Source: a virus. Taken from it: a stretch of 37,201 bases of DNA. The position numbers and the translations under genes are program-made. Under the pieces are notes generated by a model, which was not told the origin of the DNA, searched no databases, and saw only the letters and a program-made list of their open reading frames with translations. Positions 11,133-32,711 of this stretch are shown here, piece by piece (the first letter of the stretch is position 1; each line of letters starts with the position of its first letter). The stretch spans positions 1 through 37,201 of the IMG/VR virus record IMGVR_UViG_3300030098_005538. One strand, written 5' to 3'.

Positions 11133-11144
11133 TAGATTCTAGTT

Positions 11145-13393: not shown

Positions 13394-13396
13394 AAA

Positions 13397-13416: not shown

Positions 13417-13455
13417 TTTTTGAATTACGCAGCCGTTCGGGCGTAAAGAGAACGT

Positions 13456-14466: not shown

Positions 14467-14488
14467 CAACAATCAAACACATAGAAAA

Positions 14489-15478: not shown

Positions 15479-15504
15479 CCTTAACCAATAGAAAAACAAA
15501 TATT

Positions 15505-15960
15505 ATGGCTAAAGTAGCAAATAATGAGCTCGGAAACGGGTGGAGTGATTTCCTTGTTATCAAACATGGGGATTTAACGGCGGAGGCCACTACGCAAACC
15601 TTTACCTTGCCGGTTCCGGCTGGCGGCATTGTGAAAGATGTCGGGGTTTATCTGGAGACCGCATTTGACGGAGGGAGCACAAATGGTCTCAAAATCGACG
15701 TTGGTGACGGCACAGACGCTGACGGGTATATAGATAATGTTGAGCTCGCAGTTGATGCGACTGAGGTTATCTATACGCTCTCTAATGGACCGTTGTTGAA
15801 GGATGCTGACGCTTCCTCGACAAACCTGCACCAAGGCAAGCTGTATACCACAGCAGACACTATCGACATTCTTCTGACGGGAAGTCACAACTTGAACACT
15901 ATAGACACCGGCAAGGTGATCGTATGGGTGGACATGAAGCGACTTAACCCAGAAGCGTAA
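15505..15960 (+). CDS. Capsid decoration or head-fibre-like protein
   Basis: 151 aa, beta-rich. It reads as a jelly-roll: DFLVIKHGDLTAEATTQTF, TLPVPAGGIVKDVGVYLETA, LKIDVGDGTDADGYIDNVEL, then YTTADTIDILLTGSHNLNT and a KVIVWVDMKRLNPEA end. Proteins of this size and fold directly after the major capsid gene commonly decorate the shell. No cysteine or signal is present. A strong hairpin (15963-16034) follows, suggesting that high-level capsid transcripts end here. Confidence 0.6.
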   Translation: MAKVANNELGNGWSDFLVIKHGDLTAEATTQTFTLPVPAGGIVKDVGVYLETAFDGGSTNGLKIDVGDGTDADGYIDNVELAVDATEVIYTLSNGPLLKDADASSTNLHQGKLYTTADTIDILLTGSHNLNTIDTGKVIVWVDMKRLNPEA

Positions 15961-15962
15961 AT

Positions 15963-16034
15963 TTGGTTCGTCCAACCAAGGACCCCCGCTCACCACATGC
16001 TTATGCCCACGAGTGCTTCGCAGGTGAGCGGGGG
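15963..16034 (+). terminator. Hairpin pair after the capsid genes
   Basis: A small hairpin TTGGTT/AACCAA (15963-15968, 15974-15979) is followed by a 12-bp perfect stem, CCCCCGCTCACC (15983-15994) with GGTGAGCGGGGG (16023-16034), enclosing a 28-nt loop. A short CCTTTT follows. It lies 2 bp after the decoration gene stop and may act as a partial terminator limiting read-through from the capsid genes. The long loop recalls the hairpin at 5888-5955. Confidence 0.6.
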
Positions 16035-16046
16035 CCATCCTTTTAA

Positions 16047-16457
16047 ATGATCCACGTTGTCGAAAACTTAACGCGCGCGCAAGAGGGAGAGCTGCGCAGA
16101 GGAGGCCAATTGCTTGACCGCAGAGAAGCACATCTGCGACAGCAAAATGCTTTGAGGAATACAAAAGATTCCGACTTGAATGTGGAGGGGCTCTACAAAG
16201 AGCTTCGTAGCGCGGTCACTGACCAGGCGCATAAACTTAGAAAAAACGAGCGTAAGGCCAACCAGGTCAGCGCAAAACACGCCGCTTCCTGGAAAGAAGA
16301 CGTGCGATTTAAAAAGCAGAAGGTCTACCAACACAGGGCTTCAATCCCGGCAGAGGAGTATTTTGCTTTTGCCACTTCCAGGCCGGGCTGCTGGGAAGAC
16401 GAGGAGTTTACGAAAGACTACCTCAAGCGAAACCCACACCTAGTAAGCAATAAGTAA
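16047..16457 (+). CDS. Hypothetical charged helical protein
   Basis: 136 aa, highly charged (RAQEGELRRGGQLLDRREAH, DQAHKLRKNERKANQVSAKH) and probably helical, ending with an aromatic motif (RPGCWEDEEFTKDYLKRNPHL). The ending resembles small phage proteins I have seen between capsid and adaptor genes, but I cannot name a family. It begins 12 bp after the hairpin element and its stop overlaps the next ATG (TAATG). A minor virion or head-completion protein is plausible. Confidence 0.55.
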   Translation: MIHVVENLTRAQEGELRRGGQLLDRREAHLRQQNALRNTKDSDLNVEGLYKELRSAVTDQAHKLRKNERKANQVSAKHAASWKEDVRFKKQKVYQHRASIPAEEYFAFATSRPGCWEDEEFTKDYLKRNPHLVSNK

Positions 16458-17392
16458 TGGCGCAGACTGAAACCTACTCGAATCTTCTTTCGCTCATTGA
16501 GAGCTATCATGGAGCCACCCTTATTGCTTTAGAGAAGACGAGAGTGAAGCACCTGGTCAATGCCAGGGCGCGTTCAGCTTACAGGGAGTCTGATCTTTGG
16601 GATCAATTCCTGGTCACGGAAGACCGAGTCGTCAACGACGCAGACAGTTCACGGTTATTTGCTCCGTTCCAGGGCACTACATCTGCCACGGCTAGCGTCA
16701 CCAACGTAAAAGCAGGTGACATCGATACTGTGTTGCGGGCGCACAAGGAGACAAACACCTCCCAAAACAGCTCAAGGGAATACGAGGTATTTATGGGCCG
16801 GGAAGGAGCAGAACTAGTGGGTTATTCAACTGTTTACGGCCAGGCAACTGGGGTAACCGGACTTACGGGCTCAAACCCCAATTTCACTGTTCTCACAGAA
16901 GCAAAGAGAGATGCAATAGTGGGAGGAACGATGCAAATAACGGGCATAATAACTTCCGATGGATCAGCCACAGATGCGCTCGTAAATGCAAACCACACGA
17001 TCACAGGCGTCACGTATCTCACTGACTCTCAGACGTATGTAAGTTTTGCGTTAAATGCAAATATTAGTGGGGTTAACATTTCTGCTGCGGAGATCAAATT
17101 TCCGACAGTTCACCTAGCGTATAAGAAGCAGCTTAACGTCACCTACGGAGACGGATCAGGGGAAGAGGCTAGCATACCTCTGGAATGGAAAGATTACATA
17201 GCCCTGGGCGTTTATGCCGACATGCTGGCCAGCGATGGTTTCCACGACAAGTCCCTAGCCTGGGAAGGACGAGCAAACAAGGCACTTGAAAGAGAGCTCG
17301 AGCGAATAGACCGCAATAGAGCGCACCAATTCATTAACCATCGAGTCAGAACGCACGGTAGCGACCAGGCTCGGCAATCGTCACACTATTAA
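16457..17392 (+). CDS. Head-tail adaptor with inserted beta domain
   Basis: 311 aa. The N-terminal helix (SYHGATLIALEKTRVKHLV, then DLWDQFLVTEDRVV) and the C-terminal VHLAYKKQLNVTYGDGSGEE, DYIALGVYADMLASDGF and RANKALERELERIDRNRAHQ match the helical-bundle adaptor that joins portal to tail in podoviruses. About residues 130-215 form an insert rich in T, G and beta-strand patterns (FTVLTEAKRDAIVGGTMQIT, then DALVNANHTITGVTYLTDS), longer than the usual adaptor of roughly 200 residues. The insert may project from the connector surface. The function is inferred from helix patterns and gene order. Confidence 0.65.
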   Translation: MAQTETYSNLLSLIESYHGATLIALEKTRVKHLVNARARSAYRESDLWDQFLVTEDRVVNDADSSRLFAPFQGTTSATASVTNVKAGDIDTVLRAHKETNTSQNSSREYEVFMGREGAELVGYSTVYGQATGVTGLTGSNPNFTVLTEAKRDAIVGGTMQITGIITSDGSATDALVNANHTITGVTYLTDSQTYVSFALNANISGVNISAAEIKFPTVHLAYKKQLNVTYGDGSGEEASIPLEWKDYIALGVYADMLASDGFHDKSLAWEGRANKALERELERIDRNRAHQFINHRVRTHGSDQARQSSHY

Positions 17393-17884: not shown

Positions 17885-20095
17885 ATGCCTCCTCTCGACA
17901 GTCCTGTTCTATTTGACGGTGACAGCGGCTTCCGAGCTCTGGTTACCCGTTCACGACCTTCCCAGCTAAAGCCTGGAGAAGTTGCGGTGAGCAAGAACAT
18001 GCGGTTTGAGGAATCAGGGACGGCTAAAGTAAGAGAAGGATACGACAACGTCTCAGGTGTAATTTTAAGCCAGGACGTTTTTCCGTTTTTAGTCTCTGAA
18101 ACAGGCACTGCGGCAATTGTTTTAATTGGCACAGTTTCTTCCTGTACGGCTTCAGCGTCTGGATCCACTGTCACTGTTGTTTGCCCTTCGGCTCATGGCA
18201 TTCCGGCAACCGGGGGCATGGTCAACCTGGCAAGTTTTACAGGTGGCACGGGGGACTTCCTGGGGAATCGCAAAGCGACCTATGTGACCTCAAATAAATT
18301 TTCAGTGGAGGTGGCCGGGATTAGCGGGAGCTGGACTGGGGGCGTAGTGGGAGCGGTTAAATTGATCGGCGGCTCCCAGGCTATTTATGGAGCATGTCGA
18401 TTCACTAACCCAAACTCGAACAACGATGAATATATCATCATCGCAGACAACGAGAACGCTACGGCAATCAAGCTTTCAGATTTCAGCGCGACCACGATTT
18501 CTTACCCAGGAGAGACGGTCAACGGAGACGCTCATCTCCAGCAAGAGTTTGACGTAGTAATGCTGCGCCAGGACGGCAAGACTCCTTACCAGTTTGATCC
18601 TGATGACTCAGTTTACGGGTTTAGTGGCTCGGATTCCAGCGCGCCTGCATTTCGGAAAGTCAGCAGTGGCACTTACACTCAGCCCCTAATACTCGCAGCA
18701 ACAAACATTGCTATTAGCGCTGCTAATCCCGATGCCGGTAAAGTCACTCTTACCAGTAATGCGCACAATCTGACGACCGGGCAAGAAATCGAGATAATCG
18801 ACAAAGGCGCTACTAATCTGACAAACGGAGACAAATACATCGTCACCGTAGATGACGCGAATGACTTCCATTTTTTTGCAAACATAGACGCTACAGGAGA
18901 CGGCACCAACAACACAAAGGTTCGCGCGCGCGTAAGTCTGGGAGGTGGATTTCAGCACCATCCTGCATCTGCCTGGGGGACGTATCACAACCGGAGAGTG
19001 TGGGTTCCATATACGCACACCTCAGCGGGTAGCCCTGCTCGTCGCAGTCCGGCGGTTTACGACGAACTAATTGCGAGCGACATTCTTTCCAATGACACTT
19101 TTGACACGATCTACAACCAGTTCCGCCTCAGTGGAGGCACGGCTGACTACATTGTGGGCGCCCAGGCTTATGACGACGACCGCCTGATTGTATTCAACAG
19201 GAACAGCATTCATCAGCTGCTTGGCACAAGCGGAAGCCTGGCGGACGTTCGAGTTCACCTGCTTACCAACGAAATGGGCTGCCTTGCTCGTCGCAGTATT
19301 GTCTATCACGCCGGCAACTTGCTTTTCCTTTCGGATAACGGAGTAATGGGAGTGACCTTTGCCGACAATCTAAACCTGCGAGGGTTAGACAAACCTTTAT
19401 CCGAGTCAATCGATTCAGAGATTAAGCGGATCAACCGGGCACACGCAGACAAGGCTGTAGCCTGCATTCACGATAACAAGCTTTGGCTGGCTGTTCCGAC
19501 TGGAGAAAGTGAAGTGTGCAATGAGATCTTCATTTTCAACTTCCTTACCCAGGGCTGGGAATCAATCGACTCCACAAGCGCAGATAATTGGGGTGTGGTT
19601 GACTTGATCCCCTCCAGGACGAACAAAGTGAACGAGCTCTTTGCAGTCACTCAGGACGGCGGATTACACCAGCTGGATCAAACCGGCTTAGGCCTGGACA
19701 ATATTGCTCCTGCTGCCGGAGCGCCGATCACGGTCAAATACCGCAATATCCCAGCGCATTTACGCACCAGGGGATATACGCACGGGACTCTTGAGCGCAA
19801 ACGATTTCAACATTTAGAGGTTCACGTCCTGGCGGATGAACAGCAATACGCAAACGGTAATTTGGCCCTGGTGACAGAGGATCCTGACCGCACTACAGAG
19901 CTCGGTGATATCGAAACCATGCTTGGTGCTGTTCTGCAAAAAGGAGAAGGCGCCAGCATCCGGACCAGGACTGGAAACCCTCGAGGATTTGCCTGCCAGG
20001 TTGATTGGACCCCTTCCGCAGGATCTCGCTCTGAATTGCGCGCAGTGAGCGTGCGAGCAACCAATACGTTTAATTCACCAACCTCAGCGCAATAA
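17885..20095 (+). CDS. Tail nozzle protein (tail tubular protein B-like)
   Basis: 736 aa, beta-rich. The N-terminus (FRALVTRSRPSQLKPGEVAV, then SKNMRFEESGTAKVREGY) is the usual start of gp12-like nozzle proteins that list the first propeller blade. The middle (HNRRVWVPYTHTSAGSPARR, YDDDRLIVFNRNSIHQLLG, LLFLSDNGVMGVTFADNLNL, DNKLWLAVPTGESE, IFNFLTQGWESIDS) shows repeated beta-propeller blade motifs. Two inserted Ig-like parts (VSSCTASASGSTVTVVCPSA and AISAANPDAGKVTLTSNAHN) interrupt the propeller. It forms the conical end of a short tail. It ends 1 bp before the fibre gene. Confidence 0.8.
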   Translation: MPPLDSPVLFDGDSGFRALVTRSRPSQLKPGEVAVSKNMRFEESGTAKVREGYDNVSGVILSQDVFPFLVSETGTAAIVLIGTVSSCTASASGSTVTVVCPSAHGIPATGGMVNLASFTGGTGDFLGNRKATYVTSNKFSVEVAGISGSWTGGVVGAVKLIGGSQAIYGACRFTNPNSNNDEYIIIADNENATAIKLSDFSATTISYPGETVNGDAHLQQEFDVVMLRQDGKTPYQFDPDDSVYGFSGSDSSAPAFRKVSSGTYTQPLILAATNIAISAANPDAGKVTLTSNAHNLTTGQEIEIIDKGATNLTNGDKYIVTVDDANDFHFFANIDATGDGTNNTKVRARVSLGGGFQHHPASAWGTYHNRRVWVPYTHTSAGSPARRSPAVYDELIASDILSNDTFDTIYNQFRLSGGTADYIVGAQAYDDDRLIVFNRNSIHQLLGTSGSLADVRVHLLTNEMGCLARRSIVYHAGNLLFLSDNGVMGVTFADNLNLRGLDKPLSESIDSEIKRINRAHADKAVACIHDNKLWLAVPTGESEVCNEIFIFNFLTQGWESIDSTSADNWGVVDLIPSRTNKVNELFAVTQDGGLHQLDQTGLGLDNIAPAAGAPITVKYRNIPAHLRTRGYTHGTLERKRFQHLEVHVLADEQQYANGNLALVTEDPDRTTELGDIETMLGAVLQKGEGASIRTRTGNPRGFACQVDWTPSAGSRSELRAVSVRATNTFNSPTSAQ

Positions 20096-20096
20096 G

Positions 20097-20873
20097 ATGC
20101 CCAAAGTAACGACCTCAACCAGCTTTAGCGAAGACGATCAATTGACGCATACGTCATTGAATTCGTTATTCACAAATTCCAGCTTTCACTCTTCTGCAGT
20201 CGATGACACGACTCTCGAGTTGTCGTCAGGAGCTATGCGGCTTAAAGCTGCAGGTGGTGGTAACGGTATTGACACAACGCACATTAAAGATGACGCAATA
20301 AACGCGGCAAAGATTGCTGACGATGCGGTTGAGACGGCACAGATAAAAGATGCAGCAGTTACTACTGCAAAGCTTGAACCGGACGCTGTTGACGGCACTA
20401 AGATTGCAGACGATGCGATCGATGAAACGCACCTGGCTGGAACTCTTATCAGCGGACATGCTGAGCTCACGGCTCTTCCAACTACAGCACAGGATCTTAT
20501 ACTGGTCTCAGACAATGGAGTGCTCAAAAAGTTCGACTTTATGAAGTGGCTGCCGCTTCCCAGGGCTTACTCCAAGATTACTGGGCACAGCTCCAGTCCA
20601 AGCCTGGCAGGGAATTATGCTTGCTCTCTTGCAAGCTACGCTAATGGGAGTGGAGGAAGCACTTACACGATCACTCTGGACAACGCGATGGCTGACCTAA
20701 ATTATGTGGTCAACGTCCAAATCGGACACAATGTCCACTGGCACGATGAAGACTCTACCCCTTCAGTGCAAATCGACAGCGATACGCAATTTAGAATCCA
20801 CTGGCACAGCGATTATAAAATCTACGATTTGTATTTTGTAGTTCACGGAGAACTGTCCGGTGGCGGCTACTAA
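20097..20873 (+). CDS. Tail fibre or spike with 10-residue repeats
   Basis: 258 aa. Residues 61-110 hold five consecutive 10-residue repeats (THIKDDAINA, AKIADDAVET, AQIKDAAVTT, AKLEPDAVDG, TKIADDAIDE), a pattern of phage tail-fibre shafts that form a trimeric stalk. The region after residue 150 (PLPRAYSKITGHSSSPSLAG, then STYTITLDNAMADLNYVVNV and HWHDEDSTPSVQ) is beta-rich and probably a distal receptor-binding or tip domain. The first 60 residues should attach to the tail. It follows the nozzle gene and its stop overlaps the next start (TAATG). Confidence 0.75.
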   Translation: MPKVTTSTSFSEDDQLTHTSLNSLFTNSSFHSSAVDDTTLELSSGAMRLKAAGGGNGIDTTHIKDDAINAAKIADDAVETAQIKDAAVTTAKLEPDAVDGTKIADDAIDETHLAGTLISGHAELTALPTTAQDLILVSDNGVLKKFDFMKWLPLPRAYSKITGHSSSPSLAGNYACSLASYANGSGGSTYTITLDNAMADLNYVVNVQIGHNVHWHDEDSTPSVQIDSDTQFRIHWHSDYKIYDLYFVVHGELSGGGY

Positions 20874-21490
20874 TGGAGCTTAAAGCGGGCCACATAGCGA
20901 CATTGCTGGACGAGGGCAAAATCGCTCCTCGATTGCGTAAGTTGTTCGCTCGACTAGAGGATTACGTCTACTCGACGCCTGAAAACCGAGAGGTCATTCG
21001 CAACTATCCCAAAGAGGTGGTGCGATTGCTAATTGCCTACCATTACTTCAAAAAAACCCTGGCCTACAACGTCAATGCCCAAGGGGAAATAGACGGCCTG
21101 CTTCTCTGGTATCGAGTGAACCAGGACTGGGATTGGAAAGACATCGAAGCCTGGACGCCAGACGATCCTGACGGAGATAGCTTTTTCATTGGGTTCTGCT
21201 GGGCCGCCCCAGGCAAAATGAGGGAACTACTCATTCAAATGATTGACCGGGCTCCGGATGTCATTGGTTCCAGGCTTTTTGCTGTCCGAGAGAAAAAGGA
21301 TGGACCCCGGTTGGTAGAGTGGAGTCAGAAAACCTTTATCAGAGCGCTAAAGAACTATGGGAAAACCATCACCTCCCCCAATGCCCGATCGGTTGGATCC
21401 GGGACAAGTCACAGGAGAATACCTCTTTGGCTCCGACTTTCAGGGAGCCCAGGGGATCACAGATCGAAATCTGCAGCAGCGGCTGGTTGA
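20873..21490 (+). CDS. Acyltransferase-like protein with a dual-coded C-terminus
   Basis: 205 aa. The core (IDGLLLWYRVNQDWDWKDIE, then FFIGFCWAAPGKMRELLIQM and APDVIGSRLFAVREKKDG) has a beta-alpha layout that reminds me of HlyC-type lysine acyltransferases or a GNAT-like fold, but this is a weak resemblance. From about residue 162 (after FIRALKNYG) the sequence becomes Ser/Arg/Gly rich and overlaps the next gene by 134 nt in another frame, so the last 44 residues look like read-through tail rather than a domain. The start is the TAATG overlap with the fibre gene. Function uncertain. Confidence 0.5.
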   Translation: MELKAGHIATLLDEGKIAPRLRKLFARLEDYVYSTPENREVIRNYPKEVVRLLIAYHYFKKTLAYNVNAQGEIDGLLLWYRVNQDWDWKDIEAWTPDDPDGDSFFIGFCWAAPGKMRELLIQMIDRAPDVIGSRLFAVREKKDGPRLVEWSQKTFIRALKNYGKTITSPNARSVGSGTSHRRIPLWLRLSGSPGDHRSKSAAAAG

Positions 21491-22265
21491 TACTGAGAGC
21501 GAATTTGGGCGCCAGTATGTTGCAAACGAGTTAGGCCGCCAACAGACAGCGCTATTTGGCCAAGGTGACCAGCCAGGGCTCCTGGAAATGTTATCCGATG
21601 CCTCTCCGGTTATTGAGGATATGCGCGCAAGCACAGCGCGATCTCAGCGGGAATCGGATCTAAGAGATATTCAGGATTTTGGACAACAATACGTTTCCGC
21701 TTTGCGAGGGGCTGACCCGGCCATGCAAAGCCTGCTTGACCAGCAACGAGCGCTCACAAGCGATCTGTACGACAGAGCTGGAGGTGTAACACCAGAACAG
21801 CGCCGTATTGCGCAGCAGGGCGCCCGTGAGGCGTCAGCAGCAAGAGGGAGGGTGATGGACAGCTCCAGCATTGCTGGAGAGCTCCTGGGACGAGAGGAGA
21901 TGCAGAGGATGAACCGGGCTGAAGCACAGCAAGCTGGAGGCAACCTTTTTGGAATGCTGGCTCAGACAGGAGCAGATCCATCGATGGCTGTCCTGGGACG
22001 AGCATCACAATCGATGCCTTACACGTTCCAAAGCGGGAACAACGCGGCAAATGCTTCGCGATTCGGCAGCCCGCAACTCTTTAACCCAGACACCGGCTTG
22101 AACATGGCTATGGCGCGCCAGGGTCAAGAAATGCAATACAATGCTGACGTGTATGGCGCCCAGCGGGCTGGGTTAGGCTCAATCATCGGTGGCGCACTTG
22201 GAGGCCTGGGCACACTTGGAGGAGGCTTTATGGGCACACCGGCAGGAATGAGAATGTTTAGTTAA
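21357..22265 (+). CDS. Internal virion protein candidate
   Basis: 302 aa, Gln/Ala/Gly rich and helical. It starts MGKPSPPPMPDRLDPGQVTG, has long helices (TDRNLQQRLVDTESEFGRQY, SALRGADPAMQSLLDQQRAL, RIAQQGAREASAARGRVMD), and ends with a glycine-rich hydrophobic segment (GLGSIIGGALGGLGTLGGG). Such proteins are ejected with the DNA in podoviruses and may insert into the host membrane. It overlaps the previous gene by 134 nt out of frame; its own frame looks coding from the start. It lies 4 bp before the next ejection protein gene. Confidence 0.65.
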   Translation: MGKPSPPPMPDRLDPGQVTGEYLFGSDFQGAQGITDRNLQQRLVDTESEFGRQYVANELGRQQTALFGQGDQPGLLEMLSDASPVIEDMRASTARSQRESDLRDIQDFGQQYVSALRGADPAMQSLLDQQRALTSDLYDRAGGVTPEQRRIAQQGAREASAARGRVMDSSSIAGELLGREEMQRMNRAEAQQAGGNLFGMLAQTGADPSMAVLGRASQSMPYTFQSGNNAANASRFGSPQLFNPDTGLNMAMARQGQEMQYNADVYGAQRAGLGSIIGGALGGLGTLGGGFMGTPAGMRMFS

Positions 22266-22269
22266 AACA

Positions 22270-24315
22270 ATGGCTAGAATTGGAGACACAGTAAACCCCG
22301 GGCTGATGCGCGCTGATACCAGCGGCATTTTGCGAGGTGCAGCAATGGGCGGCCAGGCAATTGGCCAGGGGCTCGCTAGTATGGCCAGCGGCCTGAACAA
22401 GGGCATTCAGAAGAACACAGAGCTTGATCAGCTTGTTAAGCAAACTGCCAGCCAGGCAAAGAACCTGGCGGAGTATTTGCCTGAAGGCTCTGAGTTTAAA
22501 GCAATGGCCCAGGGGGCTTCTGATTTCCTTAACGACCCGGAAAACCGGCGCAGCGAAAAGATAGCAGCTGCCAGGGCATTCGAGCCAAACCTGAAAATGG
22601 TTTCGATGAATCTGGATGCCTCGATGAGAAAGCAGGCAATGGAGATCCAAAAAAACGAAGTAGCTCGGCAAAAAAGCCAGCGCGAAGGAGCGTCTAGAGG
22701 CCTTGCCGATTTAGTGGCCTCAGAAGGAAATAGAGATGCTCTTGCAGAGATATCGATTGCTTCGATGAAAGAGCTGCAAGGAGATCCGGAAGCTACGGCT
22801 GCTTACAAGAGCTCCGCGCTTCAGGGTCTGCTAAGCATTGAGCAGTCTCAAAGAAAGTCTCCAGGATCGATCACTACGCTGTCGAAATCTGTAGATGGAT
22901 CGGAAGTTGGTCGCGAGGCTGGCAAGACTTACACGTATTCAGCGTTCCAGCAGAACGGACAAATAATACCGGGAACTGTCAGTATTACTCCGAAGGAAAG
23001 AGCCGGCGTGTTGTCACCGAAAGAGGCTTTGCAGCAAAGAGAAGCAGTGGCATCACAGGATTTTGATCAACAAGCGCAGTTTGAAATGATCGAAAAACTA
23101 CCAGACAGGGAGTTGGCTGCGTCTACCTATGTAGAAGCGTTAGATTTACTTAACGAGAAAGGCAGAAACAAAACCTATCAAGGAATGGGAGCCGAGCTAG
23201 TGGTTAAGGTGAACCAACTAGGGGCGGCTTTAGGTATCGACGAAGCAAAAATCAAAGCGGCAAAAGGAGAGCGGCTGATTCAGATTTTTGGAGACGAGGT
23301 AATGAAGCAGATCAACAAGACGAAGGGTGCTGTTTCTGAGAAAGAGATGAAATATTTTGCTTTGATTTCTCCCGGCTTGAACAAGCAAGGCAAAGTCAAC
23401 AGGGACGTAATGCTGAAGCAGCTGAAGTTCCTTCAAAGGGAAATTAAGGTTGGCACTTTGGTTAGGAACATGCGCAACGAAGGCAAAACTGTTAGTGAGA
23501 TTGCAAAAGCAGTTGGGGACTTCCGCATGGAAAACCTTGTTGTTCCTCTTGCTGAGATGCAGCGAGTAATAGATGCAGCCGAAGCGAAAACTACGCCTGC
23601 CAAGTCGAAGCGACAGGTTAGCCAGGATGCGATGAAAATGCTCCAGGGGATACGGGCGGGCAACCCTACACAAGCCGCGCCAGCGCCACCACAGATGCCT
23701 CCTGAGCAGGGATCAAGCCCCGTGGCGCCCACCGCTCCTGCACAACCACAGCCCGGCCCTACAGGGGCCACACAGCCTGCCAGCAGCCAGTTTAACGTCT
23801 TAACTGTGCCACGCGACACAGCAGCGGCCCGGTTGGCTTTGAAAGACGCACAGCACGTTGTATCGACAGATTTCAATAGTGGAGCAGAAGGCAAACGTGC
23901 GCCGGCTCCTGGCATCGAAATAGTGGTTCCGAGAAACGCTACCCCGCAAATAGTCCAAGCCGCCAAAGATTATCTATCGCAGACTGAAAACTTCATGCGC
24001 AGTCGCGGCGTAAAAACCGCGATTCGCAAGACCGGCAAAAACAAGGACGGCATCCTTTACAAGGGCGCAACGCCTCGGTTTATTTACACTGAGCCATTCT
24101 TTAAAAGTGACGCGGCTTCCCGCAAAGCGATTGAAAAAGACGGCGCCGGATACGCACAGATTTTAGCAAACACGTTAGGGAGGCTTCCTGGAGTTAGCTT
24201 TATTCCTCCTCACAAGAAAAACGACAAAGGCGCCGCAATTCGCGGCACCAACATTAATGAGCAGGACTGGTCGATGAGGCACGTCATTCCTCATTTGCTA
24301 AATCTCAAAGGTTAA
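22270..24315 (+). CDS. Internal virion protein with a C-terminal amidase-like domain
   Basis: 681 aa. The first 470 residues are helical (GQGLASMASGLNKGIQKNTE, EMIEKLPDRELAASTYVEAL) and include KGAVSEKEMKYF at about 352-363. A Pro/Ala/Gln linker (about 475-505) leads to a C-terminal domain from about 508 with motifs PGIEIVVPRNATPQIVQAA, FIYTEPFF and SFIPPHKKNDKGA (H648). These motifs occur in a phage-specific domain similar to N-acetylmuramoyl-L-alanine amidases, which may loosen peptidoglycan during genome ejection. The amidase assignment is from recalled pattern only and metal ligands are not fully identified. Confidence 0.6.
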   Translation: MARIGDTVNPGLMRADTSGILRGAAMGGQAIGQGLASMASGLNKGIQKNTELDQLVKQTASQAKNLAEYLPEGSEFKAMAQGASDFLNDPENRRSEKIAAARAFEPNLKMVSMNLDASMRKQAMEIQKNEVARQKSQREGASRGLADLVASEGNRDALAEISIASMKELQGDPEATAAYKSSALQGLLSIEQSQRKSPGSITTLSKSVDGSEVGREAGKTYTYSAFQQNGQIIPGTVSITPKERAGVLSPKEALQQREAVASQDFDQQAQFEMIEKLPDRELAASTYVEALDLLNEKGRNKTYQGMGAELVVKVNQLGAALGIDEAKIKAAKGERLIQIFGDEVMKQINKTKGAVSEKEMKYFALISPGLNKQGKVNRDVMLKQLKFLQREIKVGTLVRNMRNEGKTVSEIAKAVGDFRMENLVVPLAEMQRVIDAAEAKTTPAKSKRQVSQDAMKMLQGIRAGNPTQAAPAPPQMPPEQGSSPVAPTAPAQPQPGPTGATQPASSQFNVLTVPRDTAAARLALKDAQHVVSTDFNSGAEGKRAPAPGIEIVVPRNATPQIVQAAKDYLSQTENFMRSRGVKTAIRKTGKNKDGILYKGATPRFIYTEPFFKSDAASRKAIEKDGAGYAQILANTLGRLPGVSFIPPHKKNDKGAAIRGTNINEQDWSMRHVIPHLLNLKG

Positions 24316-24321
24316 CTAGCT

Positions 24322-27300
24322 GTGTCAACCGAAGCTGCTGCACTAGAAGAGTTGCAATCTGCTGGACTAGTGTTTCCAGACGGATCTTTGACCCAACGTG
24401 GTGAATTTGAAGCCAACCTGGCTGACTACCAATTTTCTGATCAAGAGCTAACCACTTTCCGGGATTTTTATGACCGAGGATTAATTCTTGAAGATTTAAG
24501 CCAAACTGAAGAAGGACGCATTTTTGGCATGTCCAGGGAAGAGGTCCTGGACGAAGGAGAGGAGACCTTTGCCCGTTGGTATAAACTGGGAGGCTGGGAA
24601 GAACACACTGACGAGATTGCAATGCGCGACCCGGAAACAGGTGAGCGCCTGCCTTTTATTGCTGGGCCTACATCAAAGTCTGTAGTCAGCGAATCAATCA
24701 AAGGATTAGCTACAGAAGTAATTCCTAGTGCGGTTCAAGGAGCCGGGCTTATGGCGCGATCCATGAAGCCTGATTTCCTTTCCAAAATTGACGACACTCT
24801 AGGCAAGGTCACTCTTTTTGATCTACCGATATTGGCGCCAATCTATCCAGGGGCTGCGCTTGGATACGTTGAGCGAAAAGCCAGAGAGAAGGCCGGGCTT
24901 ACCTTGGACGAGTTCAATGAACTTGCTGACGACCTAGCGCTAGCGACATCTGGAAAACTTGTCGCTGGGATGGCCCGGAATCAGGTGTGGCTAGCAAGAG
25001 GGATTGAATTACAAGAAGCCTTTCTCGCTAAAAAGATGATGGGGGACAGCGAGGAGGCAGAAGACGCATACATCAAAGCGCTTTTTAACTTTGAGAAAGG
25101 GCTACAGGAAATCGAAGACCTTGATGCAGCCGAAGGCATGATGATGGGGCAAGCCTTCCTGGACATTTTTAAGCCTTTTGACGATCGCACCGAAGACGAA
25201 AAGCTTTCGGAGATTGCCAGAGTTGGAGAGTTAGTAAGGACTAAACGCGAGCGGTTTGACGACGACACGCTGGAGGAGTTTGAAAAGCACCAGGACAACC
25301 TTTCGCAATTTGTTGAGATAAGCGCTCCAATCACGCCACTTGCTTCAGTTGGATTAAGGCTTGGTGCGTCTACCGCTAAGAAAGGGATGAAAATCTCTAA
25401 AGAAATTGCGAAGAAGCAAGCGCAGTTGAGCATGACGCAGCGCATGATTGATAGGGGAGCGTTTGCGACTCCTTACGTCAGAAAAGGAGAGACTGTGTTG
25501 CCGACAGGCTCCCAAGGTCTAAAAACCAGAGCCGCCAAGCTTACTGAAGAAATCGGCGCACTAAATCAAAAGGCTGGAAAGATCGACGCTCAAACTGGAG
25601 TGGCAGGCGCGGTTAAAGATGCAGCGCGAAACGCCGGCTACGCAACTAGGAATTGGTTTGCAGGAACAAAAATGGGCCAAGGGTTGGCAGTGGCAGCACG
25701 AAAGGGAAGTGAGTTTGTTGACGATTCACCCCGACTAGCAAAAGGACTTAGAACTATAACCCGGGCTGGCAGATATGGAGGCTTTGCTGTGGCAGCTGGC
25801 GGCGGAGGGCTGGCCATGCTTGGATCCGGAGGAGCATTGGCGCCTATTGCAGGACTTGCCGTAGGCTTAGGCACTTTGCCTGCGCGCTACAATATTTTGC
25901 GAGCCGCATTCCTGACCATGCGAGACATGGGTGCTGAAGCATTGCGTCGAAAAGGGTCGATGCCGTATTGGAAGCGAGTCGCAGAGGACACCAGCAAAAA
26001 TGCTTTGGCTCGAAAAGGAGCTCTGGCAATGGACCTTTTCCGAGTTCCCGCGCGTGTAGCGTCTCGTGGAGCCGAGGCAGCAGCAAAAGGAATCATTGCA
26101 GAGACACCATTTTCGATGATTGGTGGTCTACACCTGGGAGCGGAAGCCTGGGCGGCAGATGCGATTTCTGAAGGTGTTGTGCTTGGATCTCCAGGGATTG
26201 TCCGGGGGATGGTTTATGGTGCTGGAGGAATGCCAGCAGTGGCCAAGAAAGCTGAGTTCGACAAACTGGCTATGGCTGACGCAGCAGAGATGCGCAGGAA
26301 CTTAGACGGTCAAGCGCAGCAAGATGCTTTTGACAGGCTACCTAGAGACATACGGCGGCAGCTAGGTGTCTACTCTGCAGTGTTCCCGGACATCGATTGG
26401 TATTTAGATACTGAGGGGGTTGATTCTTCTTGGGACAAACACACAGGGAAGTTGACCATTGCAGTCAACTCTGCAGATCCTCTAGGTGCTTTAATAGGCC
26501 ACGAAGTAGCTCACAGCTTGCACGACCGGGGTCTGGCCGATCTTGTGGTCGAAGAGTTAGTAGGTGACGGCGGGGCGCTGCGCATGACAAAGGAGCAATA
26601 CTTGCGAGCAAGAAGAGCAGAGCAGGACCAGGCGCGAGTTAATGAAAAAGGAGAAGTTGTTTTGCCTTCAGAGGCGCAAATCGTGGCAGAGCGCGATGCA
26701 AGGCGCACAGATGAGGAAGGCGTCATCGTTATTCCAACCGATCCTGACGAAGCCGGCCTGGGAGACACAATGCCTGACGTGCTGCCTCTTACTCCTGAAG
26801 CGCAGGAGTTTAAGCGCCGCTACGAAGAGCGGTCAGGAGAGCTACTTGATGAGCCGGATCTTGCGCTTGAATACTTTGCGGACACAGTGGGGGCTAGCTT
26901 GTCCAGGAGCCGTCAAAAGCTCCAGGAGTATGCTCAACGCAATCCGATTGTAAGGGGCTTAGTTGACGGAGTGTTTAACAAGTTTGCCTTTGGCCGAGAG
27001 TTTCTTTTGCGCAGTGGAGTAATGTTCGACCGCTACGGAAACCCAATCAAAGGCCAGGGCGTGTTGGGTGTGTTTCAGCAAAGCCCTAGCTTGAGTCGAG
27101 TTGTAGAAACTTACTTGCGCGAAAACACAGGAAGGCTGCCTGAAAATGTGCCAGATTCAGCGGCTAAACGAGCGCGAGAAAAAGCCGACATTCTCACTAC
27201 AGAAGAAGAGCAAGCAGCCATTAAGGACAACATTGTCGACTACGTGACAGACAAAGATGGCAACGTCAAATTTCTGCCAGACGGAACGCCAGTAGGCTGG

Positions 27301-30300
27301 GATGAAGAAACGTGGAAGGCGCGCCAAACTGCCGGCAAAACAATCATCCAGGAGATTGCTGAAAAGTATGGAGTTAGTGGTGTGATCTTTAAGAACGGAG
27401 AAAGGTCTTACCGGCTTACCAGGACGCAATGGGACGAGGTGTTGCGGAAACTTTCTGAGTCAGGCTGGTATAACCGAGTGCAGCTAAAAATCTTCGAGCA
27501 GATGATTGACGCTGTGCAGCGCGAAGATGGTGACCAGTTTTTGCTGCATTATCATCCGGTCTATTCGACTGACAGAAGAGGAGGAAAACGAGTCCCCAGG
27601 AATGGACGATTTTCGAAGCTAAAAAAAGGAGTGCCTTACGACATAACGGTAAGCAGCAAAGGCAATATGCTCTTCCGGGTTGTGGACGTAGATAAGCTGG
27701 CAAACAACGCAGAAAAAGCGTTCAACACAAAGCTAGGCCAACAGCTCTACAACAATACCAGGGACATTATGAATGACCTGGAGACCCTGGCTAAAAACCA
27801 CAAAGCAGGGAAAAGTAACGTCGACCATTTTGGCAGCCAGGACCGCGTCAACTTCCTGAATGCCATCATGGGCATTCTTAACAAAGAGCACGAAGCAAAG
27901 AACCCGCTGTTTGAGCAGCCGGTGTTCAGGAACTTCCGCAACAAAACCAACGCAACAGACAGCGTTCGGCTTGATCGAATCAACCGGGCTCGCATTGGTA
28001 GGACTCAAGCTCTACCATTTAGGTTTGATGAGTGGCGCAAGAACATGATGCCTGGGCCAGCAGATGCGGCAAATCAGCAAAGCGATGCCCAAGCAGACGA
28101 CATCCGGAGAATGCCGGCCAAACCGGAATGGGTGGGCAATCCTCCCACATTCTTTGACCCGGCAGAGCCGGTTGTCTCAGTCGAGAACCAGCCCGGATTT
28201 AATTCGCAAATCCTCCGGGGACTGCACACAGCAAGTAAATCTGTGCAGCGAGCTTTTTTCCAAGAAATAGAAGAGGCCTTGGCTCACGACAAGTCCGGTG
28301 ACGTGATAGCTCACGAGATGGGTTTGGCTGGGTTGCTCGGCCCGGAAGGACTAAAGACAGCGGAGCCGGCCCCGAGCGTCTACGTTAACAAAAGCGGCAA
28401 AGTTGAGGTGAACCAAGCCGTCCAGGTTGGAGGGTTTGTCTCTCAAGAAGCGGCAGAACTCTATGCCCTGATCCGCGGCTACTACACCTACCAGGAAGCT
28501 GTAGCCGGTTACAATCCGGTCGAAGGTGGAGACAAAGCTGGGGCTCAATACCGCCTGGGCCGAGCTCTTAAAACAAAGGGTGAGGTGACTGGGGTAATGC
28601 AGACAATAAAAAAAGAGCTGCGAGAGGCCGGGATCAAGCAGCGCAAGGCCGCTGAGGATTTTGCCTTTTATCCTACACCGGAAGGGTTTAGACTTGTTCA
28701 CCTTGGCTTTAACGAGGCCATCACTCCAGCCATTCGGGACGCAGCGTTTGACGCAGTAATGGAGTATGTCAATCTTGACGCTTGGGGTGAGTTTGATACC
28801 GACACATTTTACGAGTTCAATAACTGGACAACAGAAGACATAGAAGAATATGGAGAAGTCATCAAAGCAGCCCCAGGGGGTGAATATTTTAGGCAAGCGA
28901 TCCGGGAAAAAGCGGCTGCCCTCGGACGACCCAATATACTCACAGGGGTGGACCGTAGGGTCGGCACCAATCTTCAGGGAGTCTACGAAAAGTATTCCGA
29001 GGCCCTCGGACTCGGACGACCAGGACGACAACCTGCCAGAAGGTTCAAAGACCAAGGGTCTTTAAAACAGGAAGAGATTGGGCCTGAGGCCATCCCGGTT
29101 CGCTACAAGACTCACCGGACAGGGGAGCGAGTCCTTGATAAGGACGGTAAGTTCAAGCCGATTGAGGTTCCTTACAGGCTTACTGAGGGGCCGTTTGTAG
29201 ACGAACCCCACCCGGCACCCAGGGATTCGACCATAGACTACTTAGAGGACGGGAACAGGCATTACGAACTTACCGACCCCGCCAAAAACAGGCTTCGCGA
29301 GCTAGCAGAGAACGGATCAATCGATCACGCTGCAGACCTTCTTGTTGAGGAAGCCACTAGGGCCTTGGAAATACCGGAGATTGCATCCGGGCTGGGTTGG
29401 TATTCTAGGATGCGGGAGAAGCTGGGTGGCGCCCTGGGGGACTTCTTTGACATTTTCACTCAATTTCTGGGAGCCACGTCTGCCAAGACCCCGGTAGAAA
29501 CGAACTTTAGTCAGTCGGTGGACGTTCTTGACCAGTACCAGAAAGGCAAGTTTGAGGAGACTATCCCCGCTTACCTGGAACTGCGCAGTGCTATGAAGGA
29601 AGGGATTGAGGCCACTCGGGAGCTGCTGATCAGGGAAGGGATAAAACCCAAAGGCAGGACGTTGTCGACGCTAGGAGATGATTACATTGAAGCAAAAAAC
29701 CTGATGCCAAGGCAGCACAACGGGGCACTGTTCAATTCTAATGGCAACGCAGTTCTGAAGGTGTTAGCCGGTGTTTGGTTCCAAGAGGTCGAAGCACCCA
29801 AAACACCTCAGTTCGCGATGAACCTTTTTGGAACATCCCTTCGGGCAACCATCGATGTCTGGGCCGCCCGGACGTTGCGCAGAATCTTTCACCGAGGCAC
29901 CCAGCGTTGGAGAATTCAACCTGAGTCTGAAACGGGAGTGAACAACATCGATTTTGCGCTCGGACAGATGGTCTTTGCCAGGGCTGCAGAGAGATTGAAG
30001 ATGTCTCCGGACGACCTCCAGGCTTTGATCTGGTTTGCAGAGAAAGATATCTGGTCAAAAAATGGCTGGACCGGAGAGATAGGAGCTTTTAAGGGAAGCT
30101 TCGATGCTGCAGCGGAGGTCTACTTTCCCGCCGGGAGAGGACCTCGCAGACTTGATCACGCACGCAATATTATGACGTTTCTACAAAAGCGCAGACTCGT
30201 AGAGCACGATGACACTCTGCCTCCTGCGCAAAATAAAAAGGAGGCCGACCTCCGCAAAAACCATGAGAAAGAACTACGGAAAGCAGAGACCCAGCCGGGA

Positions 30301-30345
30301 GTCCAAGAGTGGCTTGTCGAAGCTGGAACAGAAAAAGTTCGTTGA
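24322..30345 (+). CDS. 2007-aa ejected or internal virion protein with HExxH motif
   Basis: 2007 aa from a GTG at 24322. Helical N-terminal part; a Gly/Ala-rich hydrophobic segment at about 487-521 (GGGGLAMLGSGGALAPIAGL) may enter the membrane. A metallopeptidase-like site is LIGHEVAHSLHD (H727, E728, H731), with a candidate third ligand E850 in LALEYFADTVG, after an acidic insert. Mixed regions follow. A conserved C-terminal domain at about 1700-1950 (FLGATSAKTPVETNF, then PQFAMNLFGTSLRATIDVWA) resembles a domain found in other giant phage proteins and as stand-alone proteins (DUF7178-like, possibly helix-hairpin-helix). Giant proteins in this position are ejected into the host cell. Enzymatic roles are inferred. 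Confidence 0.65.
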   Translation: MSTEAAALEELQSAGLVFPDGSLTQRGEFEANLADYQFSDQELTTFRDFYDRGLILEDLSQTEEGRIFGMSREEVLDEGEETFARWYKLGGWEEHTDEIAMRDPETGERLPFIAGPTSKSVVSESIKGLATEVIPSAVQGAGLMARSMKPDFLSKIDDTLGKVTLFDLPILAPIYPGAALGYVERKAREKAGLTLDEFNELADDLALATSGKLVAGMARNQVWLARGIELQEAFLAKKMMGDSEEAEDAYIKALFNFEKGLQEIEDLDAAEGMMMGQAFLDIFKPFDDRTEDEKLSEIARVGELVRTKRERFDDDTLEEFEKHQDNLSQFVEISAPITPLASVGLRLGASTAKKGMKISKEIAKKQAQLSMTQRMIDRGAFATPYVRKGETVLPTGSQGLKTRAAKLTEEIGALNQKAGKIDAQTGVAGAVKDAARNAGYATRNWFAGTKMGQGLAVAARKGSEFVDDSPRLAKGLRTITRAGRYGGFAVAAGGGGLAMLGSGGALAPIAGLAVGLGTLPARYNILRAAFLTMRDMGAEALRRKGSMPYWKRVAEDTSKNALARKGALAMDLFRVPARVASRGAEAAAKGIIAETPFSMIGGLHLGAEAWAADAISEGVVLGSPGIVRGMVYGAGGMPAVAKKAEFDKLAMADAAEMRRNLDGQAQQDAFDRLPRDIRRQLGVYSAVFPDIDWYLDTEGVDSSWDKHTGKLTIAVNSADPLGALIGHEVAHSLHDRGLADLVVEELVGDGGALRMTKEQYLRARRAEQDQARVNEKGEVVLPSEAQIVAERDARRTDEEGVIVIPTDPDEAGLGDTMPDVLPLTPEAQEFKRRYEERSGELLDEPDLALEYFADTVGASLSRSRQKLQEYAQRNPIVRGLVDGVFNKFAFGREFLLRSGVMFDRYGNPIKGQGVLGVFQQSPSLSRVVETYLRENTGRLPENVPDSAAKRAREKADILTTEEEQAAIKDNIVDYVTDKDGNVKFLPDGTPVGWDEETWKARQTAGKTIIQEIAEKYGVSGVIFKNGERSYRLTRTQWDEVLRKLSESGWYNRVQLKIFEQMIDAVQREDGDQFLLHYHPVYSTDRRGGKRVPRNGRFSKLKKGVPYDITVSSKGNMLFRVVDVDKLANNAEKAFNTKLGQQLYNNTRDIMNDLETLAKNHKAGKSNVDHFGSQDRVNFLNAIMGILNKEHEAKNPLFEQPVFRNFRNKTNATDSVRLDRINRARIGRTQALPFRFDEWRKNMMPGPADAANQQSDAQADDIRRMPAKPEWVGNPPTFFDPAEPVVSVENQPGFNSQILRGLHTASKSVQRAFFQEIEEALAHDKSGDVIAHEMGLAGLLGPEGLKTAEPAPSVYVNKSGKVEVNQAVQVGGFVSQEAAELYALIRGYYTYQEAVAGYNPVEGGDKAGAQYRLGRALKTKGEVTGVMQTIKKELREAGIKQRKAAEDFAFYPTPEGFRLVHLGFNEAITPAIRDAAFDAVMEYVNLDAWGEFDTDTFYEFNNWTTEDIEEYGEVIKAAPGGEYFRQAIREKAAALGRPNILTGVDRRVGTNLQGVYEKYSEALGLGRPGRQPARRFKDQGSLKQEEIGPEAIPVRYKTHRTGERVLDKDGKFKPIEVPYRLTEGPFVDEPHPAPRDSTIDYLEDGNRHYELTDPAKNRLRELAENGSIDHAADLLVEEATRALEIPEIASGLGWYSRMREKLGGALGDFFDIFTQFLGATSAKTPVETNFSQSVDVLDQYQKGKFEETIPAYLELRSAMKEGIEATRELLIREGIKPKGRTLSTLGDDYIEAKNLMPRQHNGALFNSNGNAVLKVLAGVWFQEVEAPKTPQFAMNLFGTSLRATIDVWAARTLRRIFHRGTQRWRIQPESETGVNNIDFALGQMVFARAAERLKMSPDDLQALIWFAEKDIWSKNGWTGEIGAFKGSFDAAAEVYFPAGRGPRRLDHARNIMTFLQKRRLVEHDDTLPPAQNKKEADLRKNHEKELRKAETQPGVQEWLVEAGTEKVR

Positions 30346-30535: not shown

Positions 30536-30754
30536 TTAATTCATTTCTGACGGATTATCCGGCAACGATTCCAGCCAGGCATCCAAACTCTCTTTAGAAA
30601 TAAGCCGGCGCTTTCGTCCTGTTACCCCATTCCCGGAAGTATACAGCTTGGCCCTAATGTTGCCCCGCTGCATTTCCCGTTGAATTGTTCTCTCTCCCAG
30701 GCCGCAGTAGACTACGGCATCCTTTACTGAAAACCAGGCAGGTTGTGCGCTCAT
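30536..30754 (-). CDS. Small HTH protein, excisionase candidate
   Basis: 72 aa from ATG at 30754; a GTG at 30763 would add three residues. The core (WFSVKDAVVYCGLGERTIQR, then EMQRGNIRAKL and RRLISKESLDAWLESLP) fits the HTH_17/excisionase winged-helix layout: helix, turn, recognition helix, short wing, final helix. It follows the integrase by 48 bp on the same strand and is probably co-transcribed. Its position next to integrase suggests a recombination directionality factor, but a regulator is also possible. Confidence 0.6.
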   Translation of the reverse strand: MSAQPAWFSVKDAVVYCGLGERTIQREMQRGNIRAKLYTSGNGVTGRKRRLISKESLDAWLESLPDNPSEMN

Positions 30755-30802
30755 GGACGCCACAATGCGCCCAGACTAAACCCGGAGGAAGAATTATTTT
30801 AC

Positions 30803-31978
30803 TTATTGCGGAAGTTTTTGCACGGCCTCGTTGAGCGACTGGTCGTGATGCGTATATCTCGCGTGTATTCCGTCCTTACTGTGCCCGGTAAGCTTCTTCC
30901 GGATATCCGGCGCCACAGCGGCATCAGCCAGCCAGGAGGTAAATGAGTGGCGCAGAGAGTGAAATGTCCGCTTGGCCTGGCCTCCTTCAGGCGTTTCGAC
31001 GTATTTGGGAACCCCGGCCTCTTTCATAATGGAGGCAAACTGCGACGAGGTTGAGCTTGTAGCCTGCTTCTTCAGAGTAGGGAAGAACTTGCCCTGGCGC
31101 TCGTCGATCCACTCAAGAACCCTGGAGGTGATCGGAACCCGCACGGTTTTCTTTGCAGCCTTCTTCTTCCCCTGGACAAAGACGAACGAGTCATTGCGGA
31201 TACTGGCTGTCCCGAGCTCCAGGCAGTCTCCCAGGCGCTGTCCGGTGTGGCCGGCTATCAGAATCAACCCAGCCCACTCGTCGCTCTTATGCTTCTTAGC
31301 AGCAGCCTCTAGCAGCAAATTAAACTCCTCCTGCGTAAACGCAGCCACCTGCTCGCTGTCATTCTCCTGGAACGGCTTGATTACCTTCTCTCCGGCAGGA
31401 TTGGTAGGGATTAAGCCCTCGTCCACAGCCTGCTCCATAGCGTATCGGAACATTTTGACGTACAGATTGGCTGTGGCGCCCTTCATCCCTTTCCGCATCT
31501 TCCCAGCCGCTGCGACCACCAGAGCGCCTGTGAGGCCATCTACAGGCCCCTGAGCGGTCTTTTTGCCTAATGCCTCGAGCATCTTCTGACAACCGGTCCG
31601 GTAGCTGTTCCTAGAGCTCTCTGTCGGAAGCTGGGGGATCTTTGCAGCCAGGAACGCATCTACATGCTCCTGGAGGGTTACCCGGCAGTAGTCAGGGTTA
31701 GCGATGCGATGGAGGCGCCTGATGAGATCCTCAGCCTTCGAGAGCGACAATGAACCCTCAGCTGCGTAGTCGGCAGCCCTGCGCACTACGTCCTGGAATG
31801 CGACTCCCAGGCCCACCTCCTTAGCGGCCTCCCGGCGCATACCTGCAGCGATGTCCTCAGCCTTCCTGCGAGCTTCCTTTTTGAGCGTTGTCCTGGTGCT
31901 CTTGTAAACCGGCTTGCCGTCCGGATCGTAGAACTTGACCCACCAATATTTAGATTCCTTCTGTTTGTATAAATGCAC
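30803..31978 (-). CDS. int: Tyrosine integrase
   Basis: 391 aa from GTG at 31978, which is preceded by AGGAG (minus strand) with 8-nt spacing; a GTG at 31996 gives six more residues but has no such site. N-terminal arm-binding part (HLYKQKESKYWWVKFYDPDG), core-binding domain (HVDAFLAAKIPQLPTESSRN), and catalytic domain with R248 (HTGQRLGD), a hairpin lysine in KKAAKKTVRVPIT, H340 and R343 (HSLRH), H366 (LTGHSK) and nucleophile Y375 (ARYTHH). It catalyses phage integration at the tRNA-like core next to its start. Two candidate arm sites overlap its start and could make the gene autoregulated. Confidence 0.93.
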   Translation of the reverse strand: MHLYKQKESKYWWVKFYDPDGKPVYKSTRTTLKKEARRKAEDIAAGMRREAAKEVGLGVAFQDVVRRAADYAAEGSLSLSKAEDLIRRLHRIANPDYCRVTLQEHVDAFLAAKIPQLPTESSRNSYRTGCQKMLEALGKKTAQGPVDGLTGALVVAAAGKMRKGMKGATANLYVKMFRYAMEQAVDEGLIPTNPAGEKVIKPFQENDSEQVAAFTQEEFNLLLEAAAKKHKSDEWAGLILIAGHTGQRLGDCLELGTASIRNDSFVFVQGKKKAAKKTVRVPITSRVLEWIDERQGKFFPTLKKQATSSTSSQFASIMKEAGVPKYVETPEGGQAKRTFHSLRHSFTSWLADAAVAPDIRKKLTGHSKDGIHARYTHHDQSLNEAVQKLPQ

Positions 31979-32182
31979 TATCACTGCTCCTATCACCGCC
32001 GATGGCCGCCAGCAAGCTTTTTAAGGTGATAGGATGCGTAAGTTACTGGTGCTTAATGGGGATGAACTAATAGGTCGAAGGTTCGAATCCTTCCGCAGGA
32101 GCCAACTTAAACTCCTAAGAATCAAGGGCATAGCTTTTTGGCAGTTTTCAGAAAACGCCAACTATCACCGCAACTATCACCG
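31978..32182. other. attP: Phage attachment site attP with tRNA-derived core and arm sites
   Basis: The core 32072-32104 is the 3' end of a tRNA: T-arm GAAGG-TTCGAAT-CCTTC (32077-32093), acceptor strand CGCAGGA, discriminator G and CCA. The G discriminator and AGGAGCCA end fit a tRNA(Asn)-like gene. Upstream bases do not match a tRNA, so only the 3' part is carried. Arm sites with CTATCAC occur at 31978 and 31990 (direct), 32024-32033 (inverted), 32162 and 32174 (direct). Pairs are exactly 12 bp apart on each side. A GTTTTC-A-GAAAAC inverted repeat (32144-32156) and two CTTTTTGGC copies (32134, 32192) lie between or beside them. Arms on both sides imply an intact, non-integrated attP. Confidence 0.85.
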
Positions 32183-32298
32183 TTGCTAAAACTTTTTGGC
32201 CAAAACATCGGCGCCCCGCTATAGCCGCCCATAGGCCTTTCTAGCAAGGGTTCCATTTTTTTGTTCCTGTTTTGCGCGAGTGCGAAAACGCTCCAGGA

Positions 32299-32496
32299 AT
32301 GGCCATCAATTTACCGCCTCCAGGAGAAGAGCCAGAGTATGTTTCCATCAGCGAATTTGGACAGATTTTTGGCAAGTCCCGCTACTGGGTAAAGCTCGTC
32401 ATTAAAGAGAAAAATCTCAAAGTGAAACGCATCGGACTGGGCGCGGGCACGATGTATCTTCCTTACTCAGAAGTAGAGCGCCTCTTGGCCGACTGA
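32299..32496 (+). CDS. Small HTH regulator near attP
   Basis: 65 aa from ATG at 32299; an upstream TTG at 32272 is less likely. The sequence YVSISEFGQIFGKSRYWVKL, then VIKEKNLKVKRIGLGAG and TMYLPYSEVERLL, reads as a winged HTH of the excisionase or MerR type. It starts 195 bp after the tRNA-like core, with the right-arm sites in between, and is divergent from the integrase. Roles as excisionase, directionality factor or Cro-like regulator are all possible. It overlaps the stop of the RHH gene on the other strand by 34 bp. Confidence 0.55.
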   Translation: MAINLPPPGEEPEYVSISEFGQIFGKSRYWVKLVIKEKNLKVKRIGLGAGTMYLPYSEVERLLAD

Positions 32497-32711
32497 GCCT
32501 GCTCGTCGTTCGCTAGAGGGATGTCATGGCCAGCGGCTCGTAAGCCGTCTCTGACCAACCTACGCATCACCTGCGAGCGCGTCTGGCCTGAGCGCTTCAT
32601 CTCAGCCTTCATAGCACGGTCGGTTGCTTGTTCAAAATCCGCGCGAAACGAAATTTGCAGCTTAGCGAATTCCGGGACTCGAGGGCGTCCCATATTCTTC
32701 TTTTTGCTCAA
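32463..32711 (-). CDS. Ribbon-helix-helix-type repressor candidate
   Basis: 82 aa. The stretch KLQISFRADFEQATDRAMKA, then EMKRSGQTRSQVMRRLVRDG, fits a ribbon-helix-helix DNA-binding domain (strand, helix, turn, helix with SQVMRRLV). The N-terminus is basic and the tail is polar. RHH proteins regulate phage lysogeny or their own operon. It is divergent from the early operon that starts at 32776, with an inverted repeat (32740-32762) between, so it may repress that operon. Repressor function is inferred from fold and position. Confidence 0.65.
   Translation of the reverse strand: MSKKKNMGRPRVPEFAKLQISFRADFEQATDRAMKAEMKRSGQTRSQVMRRLVRDGLRAAGHDIPLANDEQAQSAKRRSTSE

Follow-up and report, generated by a model that had tools for sequence, protein, structure and literature searches.

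Candidate arm-type sites flank a tRNA-like core beside an integrase gene

The 37,201 bases analyzed here (termed the window) make up the linear virus record IMGVR_UViG_3300030098_005538, which has a G+C content of 51.8% and, as checked in its sequence, no terminal repeats at the record ends. A gene on the minus strand (30803..31978) encodes a tyrosine integrase that is predicted to be of the lambda type, with an N-terminal arm-binding domain. The start region of this gene runs into a likely phage attachment site (attP). Its 33-bp core, AGGTCGAAGGTTCGAATCCTTCCGCAGGAGCCA (32072..32104, plus strand), corresponds to the 3′ end of a tRNA-Asn gene and is flanked on both sides by repeated copies of the heptamer CTATCAC, as is expected for the arm-type sites of an attP.

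A first-pass annotation of this DNA had listed five CTATCAC sites, including two direct pairs with a spacing of 12 bp. A motif scan of the window finds all five sites to be exact and confirms the spacing of both pairs. Sites 1 (31978..31984) and 2 (CTATCACCG, 31990..31996) form the integrase-side pair on the plus strand. Site 3 (32026..32032, minus strand; given as 32024-32033 in the annotation) is inverted and lies between this pair and the core. On the far side of the core, sites 4 (AACTATCACCG, 32162..32168) and 5 (32174..32180) form the second plus-strand pair. A sixth candidate at 32219, CTATAGCCG, is degenerate with two mismatches and was taken as a chance match.

The heptamer occurs nine times in the whole window, whereas 2.5 copies are expected, and this count was reached in none of 100 shuffles. 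Five of the nine copies are packed within 203 bp. CTATCAC is also the commonest 7-mer of positions 31900-32350, with five copies, and any 7-mer occurred at least five times in 10 of 2000 dinucleotide shuffles of that segment, which impose no pairing geometry. Chance clustering is still less likely given the regular 12-bp pairing. When scored for two direct copies ∼12 bp apart together with an inverted one on the side of the integrase, the window was equalled by 0 of 200 shuffles.

The core comprises the variable loop, a T-arm (GAAGG-TTCGAAT-CCTTC), the 3′ strand of the acceptor stem (CGCAGGA), a discriminator G, and CCA. With the exception of the T-stem, this sequence belongs to tRNA-Asn(GTT) genes of Verrucomicrobiota, which backs the earlier description of the core as a tRNA(Asn)-like 3′ end. 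ARAGORN finds no tRNA gene in the window, as is expected because the core is only a 3′ fragment.

The layout of the probable attP is conserved in related viral contigs

Terminase homologues were recovered from IMG/VR contigs in 305 stretches. Two contigs, G001 and L092/G049, represent the same phage group: Their integrases are ∼50% identical to that of the window, and the major capsid protein of G001 is 87% identical to its window counterpart. Both contigs have the layout of the window. On the integrase side, G001 carries GACTATGACCGACTATGACCGAC, and on the far side of the core CAACTATGACCGCAACTATGCCC; the corresponding sequences of L092 are CATATCACCGTTACTATCACCG and CAACTATCACCGCAACTATCACC. 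Site 1 has counterparts in both contigs, and the far pair recurs unchanged in L092 and as CTATGACC in G001. A host tRNA terminator follows the core in G001 and L092; no terminator was found just after the core of the window, where the fold is not unusual.

Two other searches yielded nothing further. A nucleotide search of phage records with the window gave no match, and a scan of viral contigs with the single integrase sequence confirmed no relative. Integrases of Ruminococcus and Akkermansia phages were dropped as relatives at only 25%–27% identity.

Arms are divided between the ends of related integrated elements

Integrases like that of the window (E ≤ 1e-25) are present in 62 of the 387 genomes of the order Verrucomicrobiales that were searched, and those at 35%–41% identity mostly have a tRNA 3′ end ∼95–150 nt upstream. 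For each of three Verrucomicrobiales elements, G304 (41.5 kb), G343 (11.2 kb), and G404 (7.5 kb), a single contig contains both ends. At one end, a direct pair of a motif comes after a complete tRNA-Asn. The other end consists of the core, one or more inverted copies, a site or pair of the same motif, and the integrase. The arms are divided between the two prophage ends in these relatives, which is the split between attL and attR (the junctions formed by integration) that the first-pass annotation proposed to look for.

The arm motifs of these elements differ (GTGGACA, ACTGAACA, and GTGTAGGCAC), and the geometry is kept. Five of seven elements have their highest count of shared 7-mers on the diagonal; the exceptions are the window and L092, which have one common motif, and G369, which cross-matches G304 and G404. 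A direct pair plus an inverted copy with 12-bp spacing is found in the window, L122/L092, L137, L138, L141, L143, L147, and L158, and the scores of these elements were matched by only 0–2 of 200 mononucleotide shuffles. Judged by eye, the phages have a far pair spaced by 12 bp, and in the three prophages the spacing is 13 bp. G205 and G298 (C1 copy) were set aside, as they involve a different tRNA end.

The 7.5-kb element (L173; G404:C29, ∼9459-16998), at a Verrucomicrobiales tRNA-Asn, carries primase-like and small-terminase-like genes together with an integrase of the same family; it resembles a phage satellite. The 11.2-kb element (L172; G343:C179, ∼19008-30240) lies at a Verrucomicrobiales tRNA-Asn as well and encodes an integrase of this family; its other genes include primase-like, small-terminase-like, and tape-measure-like ones. 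In G210 (L180:9500-9760, from G210:C83), a core beside an integrase with GTAGGCA arms is followed by a ACTGAACACT pair of another type, which suggests that two elements with different arm motifs lie in tandem at one tRNA-Asn.

The integrase is predicted to have a separate arm-binding domain

The integrase matches PF00589 (E = 1e-15) and phrog_1. Across 27 related integrases, R248, K271, H340, R343, and Y375 are invariant and H366 is present in at least 90%, giving the catalytic set (R, K, H-x-x-R, H/W, Y) of a lambda-type, or bivalent, tyrosine integrase. An AlphaFold2 model of the protein has a mean predicted local distance difference test score (pLDDT) of 88.8. Its N terminus is a three-stranded sheet plus helix, with values of ∼90 in the strands, and its best PDB matches are complexes of full-length lambda integrase with DNA (1z1b; E = 3e-12), with the similarity extending along the entire protein and taking in the arm-binding domain of lambda integrase. 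The model thus predicts a separate N-terminal arm-binding domain, and the Pfam family Arm-DNA-bind_4 matches one relative.

Variation among the three phage integrases fits recognition of the arms by this domain. The G001 and L092 proteins are 89% identical in the catalytic domain, whereas over residues 1–32 identity is 72%, and the two also differ in arm motif. L092 agrees with the window at four N-domain residues (the Tyr in HLY, the first Trp of WW, and the Lys and Tyr in GKxVYK) and also has the arm motif of the window; at these positions, G001 has Phe, Tyr, Ser, and Arg. Three proteins are too few for proof of such a role.

The open frame of the integrase gene extends to a GTG at 31996. 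A second GTG at 31978 has AGGAG (31991-31987) 8 nt upstream, and alignment of the start region with G001 and L092 favors it. This codon is the likelier start. Because translation would then begin at 31978, sites 1 and 2 cover the likely start codon and ribosome-binding site, respectively, in keeping with the earlier claim that two arm sites lie over the integrase start region. The overlap recurs in relatives, most of which have their outer arm site within ∼20 bp of the integrase start, as estimated by eye. No match to a sigma-70-like promoter was found in 31900-32330. By analogy with KplE1 (PMC2951348), it is plausible that the integrase represses its own gene.

Host tRNA-Asn genes match the core of a relative

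GTDB contigs were scanned with the core while leaving two T-stem positions open, and host loci were recovered because these positions were relaxed. The scan returned 29 stretches, nearly all of them from Verrucomicrobiota and many from metagenome-assembled genomes (MAGs) of Roseibacillus; tRNA-Asn(GTT) genes account for most of them. In L092, the core and the terminator that follows it agree, from CCACTAGGTC to GGGGGATTTCT, with tRNA-Asn(GTT) at loci L107 and L115 of marine Roseibacillus MAGs. One Roseibacillus tRNA-Asn gene (L109:3057-3131) has the T-stem GTAGG..CCAAC with one A-A mismatch, and is possibly a recombined attachment site or an assembly artifact.

Genes and features around the attachment site

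To the left of the attP are the integrase, a candidate excisionase, and then structural genes for head and packaging functions; genes for a RecT-like protein and an exonuclease lie to its right. The excisionase candidate (30536..30763, minus strand; HTH_17 and phrog_66) is directly downstream of the integrase. A phrog_66-type gene likewise follows the integrase in G001 and L092 (61%–66% identity), and the protein is likely to be an excisionase on the basis of this sequence evidence. A gene for 2007 amino acids (24322-30345) lies between the structural genes and the integrase; its only match, a weak one, is to a PHROG whose function is unknown, and its end is ∼82% identical in G001 and L092. 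Adjoining the attP on the other side is a gene for an 82-amino-acid protein (32463-32711), which has no family match and is 71% identical in G001 and 47% in G003. In the latter, a more distant 38.6-kb relative, a different integrase-like open reading frame (L088:12955-14214) stands at the place of the window integrase, between the giant gene and the homologue of the 82-amino-acid gene. Because of this substitution, the integration cassette appears to be exchangeable.

A small inverted repeat, GTTTTC-AGA-AAAC (32144..32156), precedes the far arm pair. A hairpin is predicted there, although the overall fold of the region is unremarkable (z = 0.35), and similar repeats (TTTTC..GAAAA) occur in G001 and L092. 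This repeat is a possible bend or accessory-factor site.

A model for integration and its alternatives

We consider it very probable that a temperate tailed phage has its attP at positions 31978-32180 and recombines it with the 3′ end of tRNA-Asn(GTT) in its likely hosts, marine Verrucomicrobiales. The N-terminal domain of the integrase would bind the five CTATCAC sites, and the central and catalytic domains would bind the tRNA-derived core. By bridging arms and core, the enzyme would recombine the core with the 3′ end of the host tRNA-Asn(GTT) gene. After integration, one end would consist of the 5′ part of the tRNA, the phage core, and the far arm pair, and the tRNA would be regenerated. The other end would hold the integrase, the near arm pair, the inverted site, and the core. 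The HTH_17 protein probably acts as the excisionase. With the near arm pair lying over the start of the integrase gene, bound integrase may also limit its own expression. Comparison supports the site layout, the core identity, the arm split in relatives, and the integrase architecture; integrase binding, regulation, the excisionase role, the crossover point, and the host of the window phage are what we infer.

Several observations weigh against this interpretation. The inverted third site is imperfect in both G001 and L092. An exact 27-mer of the window core is absent from the viral and GTDB contigs that were scanned, the 384 class genomes that were searched contain no exact copy of the core either, and its nearest match among 374 genomes has three mismatches. 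The T-stem GAAGG/CCTTC was not found with its acceptor stem in the GTDB contigs or in those 384 genomes. The search of host genomes for the 33-bp core at a tRNA(Asn) end, as proposed in the first-pass annotation, therefore gave a divided answer: The phage core equals a bacterial attachment site (attB) for L092 and Roseibacillus tRNA-Asn, and the exact window core was not found. No prophage of the window phage was found either, with its terminase matching only one of 387 Verrucomicrobiales genomes, at 29% identity. Because this T-stem and acceptor combination is missing from the searched genomes, the likely assignment of the window phage to a marine Verrucomicrobiales host is drawn from its relatives.

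The T-stem also bears on the point of crossover. It forms an inverted repeat around TTCGAAT, which would suit a crossover in the T-loop of the kind that is reported for Ms6 (PMC1762012). The window and G001 have compensatory T-stem changes that, with this acceptor, are not found in the searched host genomes. A crossover 5′ of the T-stem, an unsampled host, or symmetry for integrase binding would also explain these changes. In G304, G343, and G404, the two core copies are identical through the T-arm, and they fit a crossover in the T-loop and one 5′ of the T-stem equally well.

One alternative is that the segment is an attL or attR, or the junction of tandem prophages in a bacterial chromosome, rather than the attP of a free phage. 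The G210 tandem offers a precedent, in which the integrase-side core end is followed by an arm pair of a different motif, and circularity of the window record is not shown by terminal repeats. However, both arm sets of the window have the same motif, no cellular flank is recognized in the window, and phage genes continue on both sides of the attP. No second copy of the core was found in the record, where the only other resemblance is one unrelated 12-mer. This alternative is therefore improbable. The intact attP and unintegrated phage genome proposed in the first-pass annotation gain further support from the two viral contigs with the same organization and the three elements with arms split at tRNA-Asn.

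It is slightly less probable still that a repressor or the excisionase uses the CTATCAC sites as operators, next to a real attP core with arms elsewhere. Operators might overlap the integrase start region as these sites do, and small open reading frames lie on both sides of the attP, one of them encoding a helix-turn-helix protein. In contrast, the sites flank the core on both sides and the arm sites of relatives split between prophage ends. Moreover, the G001 and L092 integrases diverge in their N-terminal strands along with the arm motif, and L092 shares both N-domain residues and motif with the window. Finally, it is just as improbable that the phage no longer integrates and that its core is a decayed piece of tRNA picked up by chance. 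A host tRNA with the window T-stem was not found in the searched genomes, but the T-stem changes compensate each other, with GAAGG pairing to CCTTC. In addition, the acceptor strand is the one seen in host tRNA-Asn genes, the open integrase frame keeps every catalytic residue, and both sets of arms are preserved.

A more speculative extension, which we regard as doubtful, is that a single integrase family and the tRNA-Asn target are common to phages and satellite-like elements of Verrucomicrobiota, with diverged arms that are read by a few N-terminal residues, and that a phage may bring its own variant T-arm. Diverged arms would then keep co-resident elements independent, and integration with a phage-borne T-arm would replace part of the host tRNA-Asn with the phage version.

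Comparison with known integration systems

The attachment site links a marine metagenomic phage group to Verrucomicrobiota and, with the integrase and candidate excisionase, makes up a complete and testable integration module. The Verrucomicrobiales elements, in which different arm motifs go with the same geometry, provide a natural set for asking how an arm-binding domain picks its DNA. They are also a starting point for integration vectors in bacteria that have few genetic tools. In 2013, an attP had already served to predict a marine Verrucomicrobia phage (group G11, PMC3861242). G11 resembles the group of the window in being a metagenomic phage tied to Verrucomicrobia through an integrase and an attP that matches a host tRNA. 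The passages on it that were consulted do not speak of arm sites, and its mean G+C is 45.2% versus 51.8% for the window.

Like the lambda system, the window combines a bivalent tyrosine integrase, with a predicted N-terminal arm-binding domain, and a core with arm-type sites on both sides. In contrast to lambda, the core is a tRNA-Asn 3′ end and the arms comprise two direct pairs, each with 12-bp spacing, and a single inverted site. The integrases have only ∼17%–20% sequence identity, and sites for IHF, Xis, and FIS are not established in the window. In the KplE1 prophage, arm sites lie over the control region of intS and bring about negative autoregulation (PMC2951348). In the window, the candidate arm sites likewise overlap a region that would control integrase expression. 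However, the overlap involves a promoter at attL beside the tRNA in KplE1, and the likely ribosome-binding site and start codon in the window, where it would lie at the end distal to the tRNA.

A tRNA or tmRNA core with paired arm sites around it has precedents, for example in cluster K mycobacteriophages (PMC3203893). Among these, CrimD has a stem-loop between the core and the far arms that is comparable to the terminator-like sequence in G001 and L092, and the arm array of Pixie includes one inverted site, as does that of the window. The cluster K phages differ in hosts, integrase clade, and target, which is tRNA-Asn here, and their integration was tested experimentally. The likely attP of the window adds a new example to a known kind, the lambda-type attP whose core lies in a tRNA gene, and the set of relatives for comparison is unusually clear.
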